From a virus, in the IMG/VR virus record IMGVR_UViG_3300037551_000020, positions 1-31,262 of that record: DNA of 31,262 nt. One strand, written 5' to 3'. The notes under the pieces were generated by a model, which was not told the DNA's origin, made no database searches, and saw only the letters and a program-made list of their open reading frames with translations. Positions 7,740 to 21,296 of this stretch are shown here, one piece after another (position 1 is the first letter of the stretch; the number at the start of each line of letters is the position of its first letter). Position numbers and translations under genes: made by a program.

Positions 7740-7747
7740 GGTATAAG
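7740..7747 (+). promoter_or_regulatory. GGTATAAG promoter-like box upstream of the HNH gene
   Basis: GGTATAAG followed by TATCTC lies in the 52-base gap after the sheath gene. It is the only + strand copy of the box that precedes several - strand units. It would allow the endonuclease gene to be transcribed independently of the sheath. A transcription start 6-8 bases downstream would fall inside the RBS hairpin at 7745-7766, so the transcript from this box might lack the hairpin. Activity is inferred. Confidence 0.4.
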
Positions 7748-7770: not shown

Positions 7771-8607
7771 ATGAACAAGAGACACCCAGGAAGACCCAAG
7801 AAAACAGATTACGGATCATGCAAAGTTATTGGTTGCATCAATACGACCGAGAATGGTTCATTTGGCCTTTGTCGAATGCACTATATGGCCAATCGTCGTG
7901 GTCAGATAGATCGCGAGGGGAAGTCTCTGTACGAGCCCAAGCGTATTCGAAGTTACGGGCCCGGGGCAAGATGCACAGTTTCTGGCTGCGGAAGCAGACC
8001 CATTGGCAGGGGTCTGTGCCCAAAGCATTATCAGCAGTGGGAAGCTGGAGTAGACCTGGGAATAGAGATTCCAGATCGAGGCCACGAAAAAGCAACTGCG
8101 ACGTACGGGCAAGCAACTTGTTGTGTCGCCGGCTGTCTGAAACGTCCGGTAAATCGTTGGATGTGCAGCAAGCACGCGCAACAACGAAATACAGGAATAA
8201 TAGACGAGCAGGGGAATCAGCTGCGAGATTTGCTGTCAAATGGCAAGAAACGGGAACGAGAGAGATGGGTGGGGAGCAGCCGAGATGGGTACGTGCTTCG
8301 AGCAGCTCCAGAAGGGCATCCTCATGCTCGCGCAGACGGTACTATTTTCGAACATCGTTTGGTGATGGAACAGCAATTGGGAAGGTACTTGGAGGAGTGG
8401 GAGTTGGTACATCACAAGAACGGCATTCGAGCAGACAACAGACCAGAGAATCTGGAGCTACTAGATGGCAGAGCCAAGAGAGAAGGACCTGGGCATCATC
8501 CAGGGCACGAATTCGATCTTGCAACTGCAGCTCAAGTGCTTCTGCAACAAGATTTACCAGAACAGTTGGCTCAGGGAATAGCCAACTGGTTGAAGGAAAG
8601 AAATTGA
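7771..8607 (+). CDS. Free-standing HNH homing endonuclease with three zinc fingers
   Basis: A 278-residue protein. Three tandem C-x4-C-x(9-11)-C-x2-H modules are seen: C17/C22/C34/H37, C68/C73/C83/H86 and C117/C122/C132/H135. A basic linker follows, then an HNH nuclease domain of the HNH_3 type: EHRLVME at 194-200, LVHHKNG at 212-218, and N223/N227 in a D-N-R-P-E-N-L-E-L segment. The zinc fingers probably bind the target site and the HNH domain cuts DNA. The gene sits between the sheath and tube genes, a typical homing-endonuclease location at an intergenic target next to essential genes. Its A/G-rich codon use differs somewhat from the flanking structural genes. The RBS is inside a hairpin (7745-7766). 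Confidence 0.88.
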   Translation: MNKRHPGRPKKTDYGSCKVIGCINTTENGSFGLCRMHYMANRRGQIDREGKSLYEPKRIRSYGPGARCTVSGCGSRPIGRGLCPKHYQQWEAGVDLGIEIPDRGHEKATATYGQATCCVAGCLKRPVNRWMCSKHAQQRNTGIIDEQGNQLRDLLSNGKKRERERWVGSSRDGYVLRAAPEGHPHARADGTIFEHRLVMEQQLGRYLEEWELVHHKNGIRADNRPENLELLDGRAKREGPGHHPGHEFDLATAAQVLLQQDLPEQLAQGIANWLKERN

Positions 8608-8679: not shown

Positions 8680-9420
8680 ATGTCTGATTTTTCAACTTGG
8701 AGTCCCTACGAAAAGTACGTGCAAGATGGTATGGTGGACGGGAAATTCCTGAATGCAGGATTTACTCTTCTTTGCGCCGGCCCTCCACGATTAGCAGCTT
8801 TGGGTGGTGGTAGCACTGCTACTGGTACAGCTGCACTAGGGACAGCGCTGACTGCAGGTGGTGGGGCCGCCGCAGATCAGTTGGTCTACCCAATCGGCGT
8901 CATCCAAAATGTCAACCTGTCTCATAACCGACAGTTCAATCGGATTTTTGAAGTGGGCTCCGAAAGATCTTACTTCATCTCCGGCCGTACTATCGGTCAA
9001 CTGGCCATCAGCCGTATCCTGTACCACGGACCTAGCTTGCTCCGGGTACTGATGGCCTATTACTCGGATAAGATTGGTGCAACTACCCTCCCAGCTCTAT
9101 TCCCAAATGCTGGCGTAGAAGCCCTAGCAAATCCACATGATGTTGTCATTCCACCAGGATACGACTACCTGTTCTTGAACCTGGCCTCGGACTTGTTCAA
9201 CCAACCGATGGGGCTGCTCATGTACGTACGTGACTCCAACCAGGAGACCTACGGCGCAGTCTACTTGGAAGGTTGCTACATCCCGAACCATACGTGGGCT
9301 ACAGATGCTCAGGGTGTTTTGATCCAAGAGTCTGCTGCTATACAGTTTGAACGAGCAGTACCCGTATCAGTCACCAACCTGACCATCGTTGGAGGAGCTG
9401 GCGGAGTATTGACTACCTAG
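8680..9420 (+). CDS. Probable tail tube protein
   Basis: A 246-residue protein with AAGGAG seven bases before ATG. It follows the sheath gene, separated only by the HNH gene, which is the usual sheath-tube order of myoviruses. The sequence has an N-terminal Gly/Ala-rich loop (about 37-65), then V-I-Q-N-V-N-L-S-H-N-R-Q, then R-S-Y-F-I-S-G-R-T-I-G-Q, then I-S-R-I-L-Y-H-G. This arrangement of a membrane-free beta-barrel core with an R-I-L-Y segment resembles tube proteins of large myoviruses. No catalytic motif is present. The call rests on order and general pattern. Confidence 0.72.
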   Translation: MSDFSTWSPYEKYVQDGMVDGKFLNAGFTLLCAGPPRLAALGGGSTATGTAALGTALTAGGGAAADQLVYPIGVIQNVNLSHNRQFNRIFEVGSERSYFISGRTIGQLAISRILYHGPSLLRVLMAYYSDKIGATTLPALFPNAGVEALANPHDVVIPPGYDYLFLNLASDLFNQPMGLLMYVRDSNQETYGAVYLEGCYIPNHTWATDAQGVLIQESAAIQFERAVPVSVTNLTIVGGAGGVLTT

Positions 9421-10148
9421 TGAGTGGTATGTTTCTTCTTCAGCCGGCCGATCTACTTGAGAAGACTGCAGCTCTACAAGCTGCTGATGCCGCAGGTAAG
9501 ATTCTAGCCCGTAAGTTCAGTAAGGTCTCTGCAGATGACTCTGGTAAAGAGCCAGCTCGTAGAGACCTTGCTGGCATCATGGCTCGTAAGTGGCAGGACC
9601 ATATACCTGGTGGATTGGCGGAAGGAAAGAAGCCTTCAGACTTTCCAGCTGCAGATTTGATCTTAGGTATGACAGTAGAAATGGAACATACCTCAGACCC
9701 ATCTGTAGCCTGTGAAATCGCTATGGACCACTTGACGGAGAAACCTGACTACTACCGTAAAGGTGACATGGCTAAAGAAGTAGCGGAGAGCTTGGGTAAG
9801 GTTGAGGACGGATCAATCACCTTGGCTAAGCAGGCGGGGGTACTAATGGCTTGTATGTCCAAGGAAGCTTGGAACCCTTTAGGAGCCATGAAGAAGTTGG
9901 TTACTCCAGCTCTAGGTAGTCTTGCTAGACCAGCTGTAAAGCGTTTTGGGTGGGGTGAGGCTCTTGCGGCAGGTGGTATAGGAGCCGGGGCCTACGGAGC
10001 TGCTAAGGCTATTCCATGGGCTGCCCGGCAAGTGGAGCAAACCAGTGCTATGCCGCTTGCGTATGGGGGTGGCTGGTCTCCAACTCCTTATGGGTATGGG
10101 TACTCTCCATATGGGTCTGGCGTACAAACCATGGGCCCAGGGGCTTAG
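9420..10148 (+). CDS. DUF5661-containing virion-module protein with LLEKTA tag
   Basis: A 242-residue protein whose GTG start overlaps the previous stop (TAGTGA); ATG 9429 is an alternative. Residues 11-17 read DLLEKTA, a variant of the N-terminal tag of this module. Residues about 62-113 match the DUF5661 pattern: GGLAEGKKPSDF, then V-E-M-E-H-T-S-D-P, then E-I-A-M-D-H-L-T-E and Y-Y. DUF5661 is of unknown function and is found in phages and bacteria. The C-terminal part has hydrophobic Gly/Ala segments (about 180-200) and ends in a Tyr/Gly/Pro-rich low-complexity tail. It lies just after the tube gene, and a terminator follows, so it closes one transcription unit. Confidence 0.72.
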   Translation: MSGMFLLQPADLLEKTAALQAADAAGKILARKFSKVSADDSGKEPARRDLAGIMARKWQDHIPGGLAEGKKPSDFPAADLILGMTVEMEHTSDPSVACEIAMDHLTEKPDYYRKGDMAKEVAESLGKVEDGSITLAKQAGVLMACMSKEAWNPLGAMKKLVTPALGSLARPAVKRFGWGEALAAGGIGAGAYGAAKAIPWAARQVEQTSAMPLAYGGGWSPTPYGYGYSPYGSGVQTMGPGA

Positions 10149-10259: not shown

Positions 10260-10802
10260 ATGAAGAAGCAAGCCAACCCATTGTTGATGCACATGATGTC
10301 TAATCCTGTGGAGGCAGCTGGTATGGTAGCTGCCGGGAAGATCATGGCTAGCAATGCTCTTCATAGATTTGGAGCGAATATTGCTCCATTCAGGTGGCTG
10401 GGAAAAGAGATAGCAGGGGTAGGTGCAAGAACTGGCATGCAAGGAAAGCCAATGCTATCTAAACCTTTCCGCAATCTAGCCGCGGTCGGTTTAGATCCTC
10501 AGCTCACATCGTTGTATGAGAACGCTCATAAAGCCGGAAGACTTATGGGTCCTGAAGCTGGTGCCCAGCTTCCTTCTATAGTCGGTCAGTTACAACATAA
10601 CCCAGCAGCACTAGAAATGCTGGGAGCCAAGAATTTACGGTTGCTACATGATGTCCCTTTGCAATCTATTGGTATCAGGAAAGCCATAGACTATGGCTTC
10701 ACTCCCGTTTCTCAGGTAGCTTCTGACATTCGTCATGGAGTAGGCAGGCTATTACTTCGGCATGTAGAAGCACCAGGGCAACTGTTGCCGGCTCATTCAT
10801 GA
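10260..10802 (+). CDS. Unassigned protein at the end of the virion module
   Basis: A 180-residue protein starting at ATG 10260, with AGGTG upstream. The N-terminus is Met-rich with an Ala/Gly-rich hydrophobic segment (about residues 16-32: P-V-E-A-A-G-M-V-A-A-G-K-I-M), then basic helical regions. There is no recognised domain. It is the last sizeable + strand gene before the strand switch. The terminator just upstream suggests it is expressed by read-through or separately. Confidence 0.6.
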   Translation: MKKQANPLLMHMMSNPVEAAGMVAAGKIMASNALHRFGANIAPFRWLGKEIAGVGARTGMQGKPMLSKPFRNLAAVGLDPQLTSLYENAHKAGRLMGPEAGAQLPSIVGQLQHNPAALEMLGAKNLRLLHDVPLQSIGIRKAIDYGFTPVSQVASDIRHGVGRLLLRHVEAPGQLLPAHS

Positions 10803-10861
10803 TTTTCTTTATCCTTGTACCATTAGCTTTGGGTATTGTGATCTGGTTGTCTGTGCGCTAA
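10799..10861 (+). CDS. 20-residue single-pass membrane peptide
   Basis: The ATG overlaps the previous TGA (ATGA). The peptide reads MIFFILVPLALGIVIWLSVR and ends in TAA. It is one uninterrupted hydrophobic helix with a terminal Arg, as in very small phage membrane peptides. The overlap supports translational coupling. Function is unknown; possibilities are a lysis or membrane accessory peptide. Confidence 0.5.
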   Translation: MIFFILVPLALGIVIWLSVR

Positions 10862-10899
10862 AGAAAAGCTCGGTAGACCACTTATTAAGTGGTCTACCG
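10862..10899 (-). terminator. Strong terminator at the strand-switch point
   Basis: CGGTAGACCACTTA (10871-10884) pairs perfectly with TAAGTGGTCTACCG (10886-10899) around one base. Read on the - strand, AGCTTTTCTTTAG follows, giving a U-rich tail that fits termination of leftward transcripts. On the + strand no U-run follows, though the hairpin may also end + transcripts at this convergent point. Confidence 0.72.
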
Positions 10900-11207
10900 G
10901 CATCTAGAGCTAGTCAATCCCTAGAATGCTTTGCACCTCATAACCTTCTTAAAGACTGGTTATGATTGGCCTCGTGCTGAGAGTTGCACTCACATTTCTG
11001 CCCCTGGTATAGGCTATCACGAGGTGGGAGAGAAACCTTTGGGTTTCTCGAATAGTAATGGCTTCAGCACGTCTTTGCATACGTCTTATGCAAAGCTGGC
11101 GATACCGTGCCGGGCCAATTTTTTACCTTGTTGGACATCTGATCTCACTGCAGTGAGTACCGTCCATCGATGCCAACAAAGTACCAAGTTTTTCTCTTGG
11201 CAATATT

Positions 11208-11215
11208 CTTATAGC
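11208..11215 (-). promoter_or_regulatory. GCTATAAG promoter-like box (variant)
   Basis: On the - strand GTGCTATAAGAATATT lies 22 bases beyond the end of the 11237-11491 gene. It differs by one base (C for G at position two) from the GGTATAAG box found upstream of other leftward units. It would drive the structured region at 10862-11207. Confidence 0.4.
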
Positions 11216-11236
11216 ACAATCAGTGGCAGTTTTTCA

Positions 11237-11491
11237 CTAGTTGAGCTTTGCCGCTATTTCCGCCCCTGTTTGCAGCCAGATCACAAACTCCGGCAAGGGC
11301 ATTAGGCCCTTATGGTCGTCGCCGCACGGGCATTTGATCTCGAACCCGACACATACTTCTTGCAGCCTTTTGTGTACTCCGACCTTGACTACTTTGATAG
11401 TAGTGCCGGGAAGAGAGATGGTATGTCCTGCCATCTGTCTCCAATCCCGCCACTCTCCATCATAGAGATACGTGAAGCATGGTTCTTTCAT
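11237..11491 (-). CDS. Small protein with Cys/His cluster
   Basis: An 84-residue protein whose ATG overlaps the upstream stop (ATGA), so it is translated with its neighbour. It has Y-L-Y-D-G-E-W-R-D-W near the N-terminus, a beta-rich middle, and KCPCGDDHKG (about residues 53-62), a plausible metal site. The C-terminal helix reads L-P-E-F-V-I-W-L-Q. No family is recognised. It is the last protein gene of the leftward accessory block. Confidence 0.65.
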   Translation of the reverse strand: MKEPCFTYLYDGEWRDWRQMAGHTISLPGTTIKVVKVGVHKRLQEVCVGFEIKCPCGDDHKGLMPLPEFVIWLQTGAEIAAKLN

Positions 11492-11870: not shown

Positions 11871-11878
11871 CTTATACC
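11871..11878 (-). promoter_or_regulatory. GGTATAAG promoter box
   Basis: The - strand reads CGGGTATAAGGATACTGATC. The box lies between the end of the 11902 gene and the start of the 11817 gene, in one of the few gaps of this block. No TTGACA-like -35 is seen at 16-18 bases, suggesting an extended -10 type or a phage-specific factor. Confidence 0.6.
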
Positions 11879-11901: not shown

Positions 11902-12405
11902 CTAAGGAAGCCCATTTTCAGGTACTGCACTATGCCGAAATCCGTCTTTTTGTGTCCAAGTTACTAGTAGCACTGCATCTGGGTAGAGGAAGAAGAATCC
12001 ATAAGGCAGCGGTTTTCGTGTTTTCCACATTCTTAAAAATTTTCCACGTGTGCCCCGTATACGCTTATAGAAACTCTTGAAGTGCATAAGATGCTGGCTT
12101 CTTGGTTTGTATGGTTGAGTTGTGATTGACGTCACTTTCGTTAAATCTAAGTGACGAACCGGCGACGGTTGTTTAGTTAGATCAGCCTCATCAGCTAATT
12201 GCTGTCTGAGTGCTTTAAGTGGATCGTAGAAGTCAGTATGTCCAGTACTAATGCTTACCATCCACCGACCATTAACTTTTTCAACATCTCGTAGTGCAAA
12301 ACGATGTGGACGTAGCACTTTTCCAAGTTTGCGCACTTTTTTGATATCTGACCTGGCCGAAGAGCTGTTAGATCTTTTCACTGTTTGCATGATCAGTTCT
12401 TTCAA
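11902..12405 (-). CDS. Basic unassigned protein
   Basis: A 167-residue protein. A TTG start at 12405 overlaps the upstream stop as TTGA, matching the coupling style of the region; ATG 12390 (162 residues) is an alternative with a weak GAAAG site. The N-terminal 35 residues are Ser/Lys/Arg-rich. The middle has G-R-W-M-V-S-I-S and D-F-Y-D-P-L-K-A-L. The C-terminus is strongly basic, then hydrophobic (G-F-F-F-L-Y-P-D-A-V-L-L-V-T). It may bind nucleic acid, but no fold is recognised. Confidence 0.6.
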   Translation of the reverse strand: MKELIMQTVKRSNSSSARSDIKKVRKLGKVLRPHRFALRDVEKVNGRWMVSISTGHTDFYDPLKALRQQLADEADLTKQPSPVRHLDLTKVTSITTQPYKPRSQHLMHFKSFYKRIRGTRGKFLRMWKTRKPLPYGFFFLYPDAVLLVTWTQKDGFRHSAVPENGLP

Positions 12406-12899
12406 GAGTGGTTCACAGAGCTGTAGAAATCTTCAGCATCCGTGTTCTCGAGCGTCCGCTTTTCTTCCGGATATAGACCATCTTCCATCTCATCTTGAGT
12501 CCGCACAAAGGACGGTCTTGTATCTCCCCGGCCACTCTTCTGGGCCTTAGGCTTTGCTGTGCCACCGGCAGCTAGATGGTGAGCCATATGATCTAACATC
12601 ATCTTGTCATCTCTATCTAGCGCGTTGAACGTCTTGGTACCTATCAAAAGCTCAGTGGCTAGAACTCTCTCATCTGGTGTGAGCTTCTCGTCTTCCATCA
12701 ACTCCCCAAGTGCATTCTCATCATGCCCGTACAGGTCTTCGAAGAGTGTGCGGGAAACTAGATCAGATTTTTCCTTCACCAGCTCCTCCGGAGATTGAGG
12801 AGCTGGTGCCATAGCAGCTAGGTAGTCCTTGGTGGTGCCGAAGAGTGGGCATTTCTGCCAGGAGTGACCTGGGGTGGAACATAGTAGGCATCTAATCAT
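12402..12899 (-). CDS. Protein with N-terminal CCHC zinc knuckle
   Basis: A 165-residue protein. Residues 4-17 read CLLCSTPGHSWQKC, an exact C-x2-C-x4-H-x4-C zinc knuckle (C4, C7, H12, C17), the type that binds single-stranded RNA or DNA in retroviral nucleocapsids. A Pro/Ala linker is followed by acidic, helical sequence (about 40-115) and a polar disordered tail (about 118-165). The ATG overlaps the end of the upstream gene by eight bases. A role in binding single-stranded nucleic acid is inferred from the knuckle. Confidence 0.75.
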   Translation of the reverse strand: MIRCLLCSTPGHSWQKCPLFGTTKDYLAAMAPAPQSPEELVKEKSDLVSRTLFEDLYGHDENALGELMEDEKLTPDERVLATELLIGTKTFNALDRDDKMMLDHMAHHLAAGGTAKPKAQKSGRGDTRPSFVRTQDEMEDGLYPEEKRTLENTDAEDFYSSVNHS

Positions 12900-14163: not shown

Positions 14164-15270
14164 TCATGTTGTTGGCAATGGTAGCAGACTTGTGAACTCT
14201 TTGTCACGTGCTGTCGGACCAAAAGATTTGATCCATACTCTGGGGCCTATGACAAGATGCTCGATAGTTCCTAGTACGTTGTATATCGAGGCGTTGTCTA
14301 TGTCCTTGTAGTGTGGTGTGTAGCGCTCAAGTACTTTTGCCCGCATGGATGTGTCTACTAGCCTTAGCTGGCGTGATAGCATTTGCAGATCTTTTGAGTA
14401 GTTACCTGCTTGGTACTCATCTGAATATGTCCACACACCTCCTCGATCTATTTGATCTAGATGGGTGATGGCCAACCCATCTATGGGAAGATCTTCGGAG
14501 CATGCATCTAGCGCGTACCTGCAGAGGCTCATGTCGAAGAACCCCGTACGGAGTGCACCCTGCCATCTGTTCGTAGGATTGTATTTGTCAGGAAATGCAG
14601 CGGTCCTGCCACCACTGAAAGTAGGAAATGGCCCACGTCCATGTCTTGTTGGGTAGGCGTCGAGCCACAGAGCAAGGCGATGTCTTTGACCTTCCGTGGT
14701 CAACCCACTGCACGGTTCATTCGTGGACCCCGTGCAGAGGCCTTGGTCCCAAGTCGTATCACCCCCGGCAATGAGTTTGGGAAGATACTTCATGAAGTGG
14801 TCTGCATCAGGTGCTTCAGCTAGCTTCCTGAGTACAGTAGCTTCGTTCTTGATGAGGTCAGAGTCTCCTGCATCGCTCGCTATCTTGAGTACTACCTTCT
14901 TGCCGTCAAGTCGGCCTGTGTACAAGTCAGCAATGTCTCCCCTTGTCAGGGGCTCCAGCTCTTCGATGGTCCTGTTTGTTTTGCGGTCCTTGAAGGTGAC
15001 AGTAGCTAGGCTCTTGCCGAATGTACCGTCAGCTATTTTCCTTTCCGCATCCTCATGAAGTATGTTGAGGGCGGCTAGTACAAGATTGGCTTCTTCTACT
15101 CCAGGATTATGATCTGGGTGTACCAACTTGGCCATACCCTGATACCTCTTCTTCAGCATCCTTTCTTGCGTGGCTTTGGTTGTGCCAATGCCGATGAAGA
15201 AGTCTTCGGCTCTCCTGGCCTCTTTGATTTTGTTGATGAACGGTTGCTTCGCTTCGGTCCATTTTGCCAT
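14164..15270 (-). CDS. Chimera: J domain, kinase N-lobe-like segment and C-terminal half of PurA/PurZ
   Basis: A 368-residue protein in three parts. Residues about 18-80 form a J domain with HPD at 51-53. Residues about 108-168 look like a protein-kinase N-lobe: G-D-I-A-D-L-Y-T-G-R, VVLKIA with K129, and NEATVL with E143. No kinase catalytic loop follows. From about 177 the sequence follows adenylosuccinate synthetase: T-G-S-T-N (179-183), AYPTRHGRGPFPTF (205-218), then RTGFFDMSLCRYA (241-253), IDGLAITHLD (263-272), and near the end FGPTARDK (350-357), comparable to the family's closing G-P-x-R segment. The synthetase N-terminus, with the GDEGKG nucleotide loop, is absent from the window, so synthetase activity is unlikely. 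An in-frame deletion that fused two genes is the simplest reading. Confidence 0.75.
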   Translation of the reverse strand: MAKWTEAKQPFINKIKEARRAEDFFIGIGTTKATQERMLKKRYQGMAKLVHPDHNPGVEEANLVLAALNILHEDAERKIADGTFGKSLATVTFKDRKTNRTIEELEPLTRGDIADLYTGRLDGKKVVLKIASDAGDSDLIKNEATVLRKLAEAPDADHFMKYLPKLIAGGDTTWDQGLCTGSTNEPCSGLTTEGQRHRLALWLDAYPTRHGRGPFPTFSGGRTAAFPDKYNPTNRWQGALRTGFFDMSLCRYALDACSEDLPIDGLAITHLDQIDRGGVWTYSDEYQAGNYSKDLQMLSRQLRLVDTSMRAKVLERYTPHYKDIDNASIYNVLGTIEHLVIGPRVWIKSFGPTARDKEFTSLLPLPTT

Positions 15271-17077: not shown

Positions 17078-17309
17078 CCTTGTCTGGTATTGTTAGTGGG
17101 ATTAACATTTCGTATGGGCTACCGTCGAATAGCTGTGCTAGTGGCACAAGCTCCATCTTGTCATCTGGTCCCACACCGTTGACTGCTGCTATTACGTATG
17201 CAGGTTTGCCTGTCGTCTTGTCTGTGCATTCGACTAAGGCCAAGTCTTCATTTTTAGCTGCTTTGAGCAGTGTTTGGAAGTTGGCTTTGTAGCCTTCTGG
17301 GATGGCCAT
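17058..17309 (-). CDS. DUF6117-like protein
   Basis: An 83-residue protein reading MAIPEGYKANFQTLLKAA at the start, then LALVECTDKTTGKPAYVIAA, then P-L-A-Q-L-F-D-G-S-P-Y-E. This follows the DUF6117 pattern (A-I-P..N-F-x-T-L-L-x-A-A...L-A-L-x-E-C-T-D...G-x-P-x-Y-V...L-x-D-G-N-P-x). The family is small, of unknown function, and found in phages and proteobacteria. It directly abuts the next gene. Confidence 0.7.
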   Translation of the reverse strand: MAIPEGYKANFQTLLKAAKNEDLALVECTDKTTGKPAYVIAAVNGVGPDDKMELVPLAQLFDGSPYEMLIPLTIPDKDEHNEN

Positions 17310-17546
17310 TTATGGCACTCCTTTGATCAACAAATCCTCTTCTTTAGATACAACATCTATCGTCATTGCTAGCCACATGTCCTTGGCTTCCTCAGTAAGC
17401 TTGTTTGGTACATCAGCGCCGCGAAACAGTTTTACTGCAGCAGCGGCATTATTGATACAATCCTCCACGGTGCAGTTTTTACTGCTCTTCAAAACATTTG
17501 AATATGTTGCTGCAAAGATCATCTTTTCTCCGTTACTCATCTTCAT
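17310..17546 (-). CDS. Small unassigned helical protein
   Basis: ATG 17546 (78 residues) is preferred because AAGG lies about nine bases upstream; it overlaps the 17533 gene slightly. The sequence is helical with N-C-T-V-E-D-C-I-N-N-A-A-A-A-V and a C-terminal M-W-L-A-M-T-I segment. This resembles the general pattern of small phage proteins with repeated Ala helices. No function is assigned. Confidence 0.6.
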   Translation of the reverse strand: MKMSNGEKMIFAATYSNVLKSSKNCTVEDCINNAAAAVKLFRGADVPNKLTEEAKDMWLAMTIDVVSKEEDLLIKGVP

Positions 17547-21226: not shown

Positions 21227-21255
21227 CTTATACCCGCAATACACACAGTATTGCG
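21227..21255 (-). promoter_or_regulatory. GGTATAAG promoter box with adjacent inverted repeat
   Basis: On the - strand GCGGGTATAAGAAATACG lies 45 bases before ATG 21182. CGCAATAC (21235-21242) and GTATTGCG (21248-21255) are perfect 8-bp arms around ACACA and touch the box on its upstream side, where an activator or repressor could bind. A terminator for the preceding unit ends just upstream. Confidence 0.6.
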
Positions 21256-21269
21256 CAATCGATTTGCGG

Positions 21270-21296
21270 CTAAAGAAAGAGGGCTGTCCCTCTTTC
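21270..21296 (-). terminator. Intrinsic terminator of the right-hand unit
   Basis: GAAAGAGGG (21275-21283) and CCCTCTTTC (21288-21296) form a perfect 9-bp stem with a four-base loop. On the - strand TTTAG follows, a short U-rich tail. It lies 34 bases after the stop of the 21330 gene and before the next promoter box. Confidence 0.7.

Follow-up and report, generated by a model that had tools for sequence, protein, structure and literature searches.

It is very probable that the virus record analysed here (the window, 31 kb or 31,262 nucleotides in full) holds a real RNA gene: from the signals described below, a probability of about 85% is given to a stand-alone non-coding RNA (ncRNA) gene of a large uncultured phage, whose predicted product would be read leftwards from a clade-specific promoter to an intrinsic terminator (Table 1). 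An initial annotation had described this strand switch as a gene-free stretch rich in perfect stems, and the observation of a structured locus is confirmed, on stronger grounds than that annotation could show. The sequence evidence for the promoter and terminator signals is strong, and the transcript itself is predicted.

In the 340-nt stretch from 11201 to 10862 on the minus strand, ten perfect Watson-Crick stems of at least 7 bp (span up to 170) were counted, some of them mutually exclusive, where at least six of 7-9 bp had been noted before; 200 dinucleotide shuffles yielded a mean of 1.7 and a maximum of 6, in agreement with the earlier expectation that so many stems would seldom arise by chance. 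After removal of the terminator, nine perfect stems were left as compared to 1.6 in the shuffles. None of the 200 shuffles was as stable as the predicted fold (-126.8 kcal/mol, z -6.7), the z-score being -7.2 for 10859-11215 and -4.7 for the RNA without its terminator, and when 182 tiles across the window were compared, both of the lowest-z tiles overlapped the locus. The structure is derived from the thermodynamics of one sequence, and the plus strand of the same 340 nt folds nearly as well (z -6.8), a normal property of inverted repeats, so that folding alone leaves the strand unfixed.

The promoter had been called promoter-like, and it proved to be more than that. The word GGTATAAG is several-fold enriched in genomes of the clade (13 copies versus 2.7 expected in G002, and 28 versus 7.8 in G005), and its intergenic copies in relatives have in common a G-N-A-A-A element and, close to the start, a TTG; from these sites a consensus was derived consisting of GNAAA, a gap of 16-17 nt, TATAAG and TTG, without a TTGACA -35 box. 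A position weight matrix (PWM) was trained on 36 intergenic GGTATAAG sites of clade genomes, and the minus-strand site at 11215-11208 lies outside this training set by construction, because it reads GCTATAAG and not GGTATAAG. This site fits the two-part promoter and scored 24.1 bits, or 22.9 bits with a second training set, as compared to a best score of 13.6 bits in 20 shuffled windows. It ranks fourth among the promoter sites of the window, its -10 element is preceded by GC where GG is the norm in the clade, and transcription is predicted to start from it at G11201. The other clade-promoter sites in the window are located at 21234, 11878, 30465, 13726, 7740 and 29584, and the high-scoring ones are all on the minus strand except that at 7740, upstream of an HNH endonuclease gene, while the promoter is absent ahead of most of the structural operon. 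Given the minus-strand location of nearly all sites, the predicted RNA shares its promoter type with leftward, mostly uncharacterized genes. This promoter type may depend on a sigma factor of the phage or on modification of the polymerase.

At the other end of the locus, the 14-bp hairpin with a U-rich tail described by the initial annotation was recovered as a predicted intrinsic terminator, in which the stem CGGTAGACCACTTA is followed, counting from the last stem base, by the spacer GAGC and then by UUUUCUUU, placing the 3' end of the transcript near 10860-10862. The UUCUUUAGC tail is typical of the clade and recurs after hairpins in relatives; it occurs five times in the window versus 0.24 expected, and two of the five copies stand behind a hairpin, the second being 3' of the terminator hairpin at 21277. 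It has also been considered that the structured stretch is a long 3' untranslated region of the leftward operon 11841-11237 instead of a separate gene, as a promoter of its own stands ahead of this operon at 11878 and the interval from its last stop (11237) to the RNA yielded no terminator. Such an arrangement is improbable in view of the strong separate promoter placed exactly at the stop codon of the operon, although both could contribute to transcription of the locus.

Table 1. Positions of the predicted RNA gene, its parts and neighbours in the window, and of two further candidate RNAs in related genomes.
Feature	Position	Strand	Details
Promoter of RNA gene	11208..11235	-	GAAAAA (11235-11230) and TATAAG (11213-11208)
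Predicted ncRNA, ~340 nt, leftward	10862..11201	-	Start G11201; z -6.7; 10 stems; no credible ORF; no Rfam family
P1, 5'-terminal hairpin GCCAAG/CUUGGU	11183..11201	-	Pair probability 0.78
P2, long bulged hairpin UACUUUGUUGG/CCAACAAGGUA	11124..11183	-	Main-stem pair probabilities 0.91-0.99
Central domain, 155 nt	10965..11119	-	Closed by AUUGGCC (11119-11113)/GGCCAAU (10971-10965); z -4.5
Central-domain hairpins	11095-11073, 11049-11030	-	
Central-domain helix CGUGCUGA/UCAGCACG	11071-11064/10980-10973	-	Pair probability 0.54
Competing pairing CCUCGUG/CACGAGG	11024-11018/10976-10970	-	Pair probability 0.42
Competing pairing CGGCACG/CGUGCUG	11112-11106/11071-11065	-	Pair probability 0.38
Hairpin UCAUAACC/GGUUAUGA	10938..10965	-	Pair probability 0.96
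Hairpin UCUAGGG/CUCUAGA	10903..10925	-	Pair probability 0.93
Intrinsic terminator	10860..10899	-	14-bp hairpin 10899-10871, short spacer, UUUUCUUU 10867-10860
Convergent 180-aa gene, left of RNA	10260..10802	+	No known family; one distant relative found (45%, L079)
84-aa gene	11237..11491	-	ORF; stop codon abuts RNA promoter
RNA-B	L262 = G005:64990-65125 (minus); G002 near 17242-17487; G006 near 72023-72208; G040 near 134615-134893		
RNA-C	L073:9985-10133 (G005); L065:12146-12286 (G002); L223:10300-10480 (G040)	minus	

The predicted architecture opens with two hairpins, P1 and P2 (z -4.9 for both together), the latter containing the inner stems CAUC/GAUG and CUCAC/GUGAG. P1 had suggested the idea that every transcript of the clade carries a 5' hairpin, which was tested on 102 promoters and rejected. 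In the central domain two near-equal folds compete, with base-pair probabilities of 0.48-0.54 versus 0.38-0.42, and this competition may represent either a switch or folding ambiguity, as a single sequence fits both.

Regarding coding potential, the description of the stretch as gene-free is essentially upheld. A mechanically called ORF of 124 aa with a TTG start (10931-11305, plus strand) crosses the locus and a small minus-strand ORF of 43 aa (10949-11080) lies within it, and it is because both frames are open that a protein-coding locus has to be weighed. The former, however, is antisense to the RNA promoter, overlaps the 84-aa gene and lacks relatives in the four genomes of the clade used for comparison, the start codon of the latter falls inside a 9-bp stem, and neither has a Pfam match, all of which makes a coding function scarcely probable. 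The next minus-strand ORF lies about 9 kb downstream of the RNA, for which reason it is not regarded as a leader. The locus thus combines its own promoter and terminator with no credible ORF and no downstream gene on the same strand, as expected for a stand-alone phage ncRNA gene.

The putative RNA gene sits in a hypervariable stretch between the conserved genes 9420-10148 and 12402-12899, the genes in between not being common to relatives, and such stretches are the usual setting for accessory functions. To its left, the 180-aa gene is missing from the closest long relative (G002), and to its right the 84-aa gene belongs to no known family and lacks relatives among the genomes of the clade used for comparison. 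Elsewhere in the window, the HNH endonuclease gene (7771-8607, plus strand) lies between the tail sheath and tube genes and is 100% identical in the closest contig (G001) with no match in G002, and it is therefore considered a mobile insertion. The minus-strand gene at 14164-15270 shows an N-terminal DnaJ-like match and a weak C-terminal match to phage adenylosuccinate/2-aminoadenylosuccinate synthetase, below Pfam cut-offs.

Relatives were collected with the 246-aa gene at 8680-9420, presumably the tail tube gene since it follows the tail sheath gene, as query; this retrieved first 38 and later 80 related records, many of which measure 130-200 kb. When the RNA was used as a DNA query, no homologue was found in phage and plasmid collections or in 37 clade records, and covariance models of the central domain (R1) and of P1 plus P2 (R2) matched the window alone among 87 clade records. 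Two DNA-pattern scans of IMG/VR also returned no homologue: the 16-mer pattern gave four loci and the 15-mer pattern 47, with no similarity outside the pattern, the former being rejected because they resemble coding sequence and the latter because they have no relatives of the window proteins nearby. Likewise, the proteins 11902-12405, 10260-10802 and 12402-12899 used as baits led to no locus with the RNA. The closest contig (98% in the tube gene) stops short of the RNA locus, while G002 has different genes between the flanking conserved genes; in the latter genome, 34 tRNA genes are also gathered in a stretch of about 14 kb (about 94-108 kb; L063, L064).

It could be argued from these searches that the locus is a functionless 3' end, where a spurious transcript meets a bidirectional terminator at the strand switch and the stems are due to chance or to reasons at the DNA level, because no relative keeps the RNA and the gaps of the closest relatives at the corresponding strand switch are short or unstructured. 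On the other hand, the locus has a complete clade promoter that serves no other gene, its ten perfect stems exceed the maximum of six in shuffles and its z-score remains -4.7 once the terminator is removed, all of which makes such an origin quite unlikely.

No Rfam family was matched at gathering score and none credibly at E<=10 (701 bases). The models of group I intron, RNase P RNA, 6S, GOLLD, ROOL and tmRNA were unmatched even at that threshold, and ARAGORN found no tRNA or tmRNA in the window; the Rfam search called for by the initial annotation thus gave no confident match to a known class, and its failure to find tmRNA, RNase P RNA, 6S RNA and group I intron motifs by eye is borne out. 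That the RNA is a diverged member of one of these classes might be proposed from its size, which is within the range of several of them, and from one weak match, to the tymovirus tRNA-like family (E 0.08, half the gathering score), yet with none of their models matched this is very improbable. The earlier proposal therefore stands as regards a structured ncRNA of about 340 nt that is read leftwards and falls into no Rfam family, given its fold, promoter, terminator and lack of a credible ORF, but not as regards a new class, the RNA being a single copy in everything searched, for which reason no conserved structure can be claimed.

Screening clade promoters without an ORF behind them revealed two further unnamed candidate ncRNAs, RNA-B and RNA-C, neither of which has an Rfam family. 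RNA-B occupies a single fixed position, past the end of a conserved 177-aa gene, in seven genomes (G002, G005, G006, G008, G009, G011 and G040); at a distance of 120-285 nt from that end stands a promoter of the clade type (18-30 bits) that is directed towards it. RNA-B measures about 120-220 nt, has a GCCGGC-type terminal hairpin, followed in most copies by a UUAGCC-like tail, and retains z-scores of about -2 to -8.5 despite strong divergence of its sequence and hairpins. RNA-C (about 145 nt) is alignable in three genomes (G002, G005 and G040), carries a T-arm-like GGGTTGAAATCCC hairpin and has strong clade-type promoters in G005 and G002 and a weaker one (13 bits) in G040. These loci suggest that the GNAAA/TATAAG promoter serves ncRNA genes in this clade, and the proposal of an ncRNA gene in the window gains credibility from this. 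Like RNA-B, the window RNA is predicted to be stand-alone with a clade promoter, a terminator and no Rfam match, and as in most RNA-B copies a 5' hairpin is followed by a long bulged hairpin; unlike RNA-B, it sits elsewhere, has an extra central domain and ends in a different terminator stem (CGGTAGACCACTTA and not the GCCGGC type). The possibility that it is a copy of RNA-B was rejected because its position, its terminator and the model search all speak against it: R2 does not pick up RNA-B, and the 177-aa neighbour protein has no homologue in the window. RNA-B and RNA-C are not homologues of the window RNA.

Two other structured gaps were encountered in relatives. A 260-nt strand-switch gap downstream of tail genes (L015:8964-9223, z about -8) contains terminator-like hairpins and a branched element, with no clade promoter of at least 12 bits among the sites listed. 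The gap L018:11382-11850 (z -9.7) has a long inverted repeat (TTTTAAAAGAGGACCCC arms, A/T-rich stems) and more hairpins and looks like an inserted element; it was rejected as a relative of the RNA because paired inverted repeats, long and A/T-rich, account for part of it.

Taken as a whole, the locus is best explained, with moderate confidence, by a promoter-driven stand-alone RNA that would act in trans and may engage a protein. According to this model, RNA polymerase would recognize the promoter at 11235-11208, start at about G11201 and stop at the intrinsic terminator 10899-10860, so that a free transcript of about 340 nt would result, composed of a 5' hairpin, a bulged hairpin, a branched two-fold central domain, two hairpins and the terminator stem. 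This RNA would be made during infection alongside the leftward accessory genes with which it shares its promoter type, and action in trans is proposed because no gene lies downstream. An alternative is a base-pairing regulator, which would pair with phage or host mRNAs, or would itself be titrated by a perfect antisense partner arising from late rightward read-through of the tail operon. The RNA is convergent with this operon and ends directly next to the stop codon of a small ORF on the plus strand (10799-10861), read-through is plausible as the 10871-10899 hairpin has no T-run on the plus strand, and host mRNAs have been proposed as targets of small ncRNAs of phage K (PMC9241854). However, no perfect complement longer than 12 nt occurs elsewhere in the window and base-pair probabilities leave few open seeds in a mostly paired RNA, so that base pairing appears somewhat unlikely. 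A protein partner is preferred over an mRNA because the RNA is largely paired, has no long complement in the window and lies in an accessory-gene setting; that the stand-alone RNA engages a host or phage protein, in host takeover or counter-defence, is put forward tentatively, in preference to a role as leader, as intron or as antisense to one of the neighbouring genes.

It is conceivable, if unlikely, that the window RNA, RNA-B and RNA-C belong to a set of promoter-driven, structured ncRNAs in a single clade of large uncultured phages, and that in this set folding would be kept and sequence similarity quickly lost because the RNAs work against the host, one example being a decoy role towards RNA-binding defence proteins, the window RNA being a larger, two-state member. 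For the window RNA, promoter, both transcript ends and domain layout are predicted precisely enough for testing, and the clade appears to carry at least two further unnamed ncRNA families, of which RNA-B, at its fixed site in seven genomes, is a good candidate for a covariation study.

Large and elaborately folded phage RNAs whose function is unknown have been described, such as GOLLD and ROOL, which measure about 660 to over 800 nt, are widely conserved, are present in Rfam and often lie near tRNA islands (PMC12286853); the window RNA differs in its length of about 340 nt, in matching no Rfam family and in having no tRNA in the window. Closer likenesses are found among stand-alone ncRNAs of unknown role, namely lnc001 of phage K, which is transcribed from the minus strand by its own early promoter (PMC9241854), and an ICP1 transcript of about 800 nt (PMC7567579), the latter work indicating that such RNAs can belong to the transcripts that lytic phages make in greatest abundance. 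The window RNA resembles both in being intergenic and non-coding, and lnc001 also in its minus strand and own promoter, while it is shorter than the ICP1 transcript; lnc001 and the ICP1 RNA are observed transcripts, whereas the window RNA is predicted and is likened to them by description and not by sequence. In conclusion, it is an orphan RNA within an already known kind, the stand-alone ncRNAs of phages.
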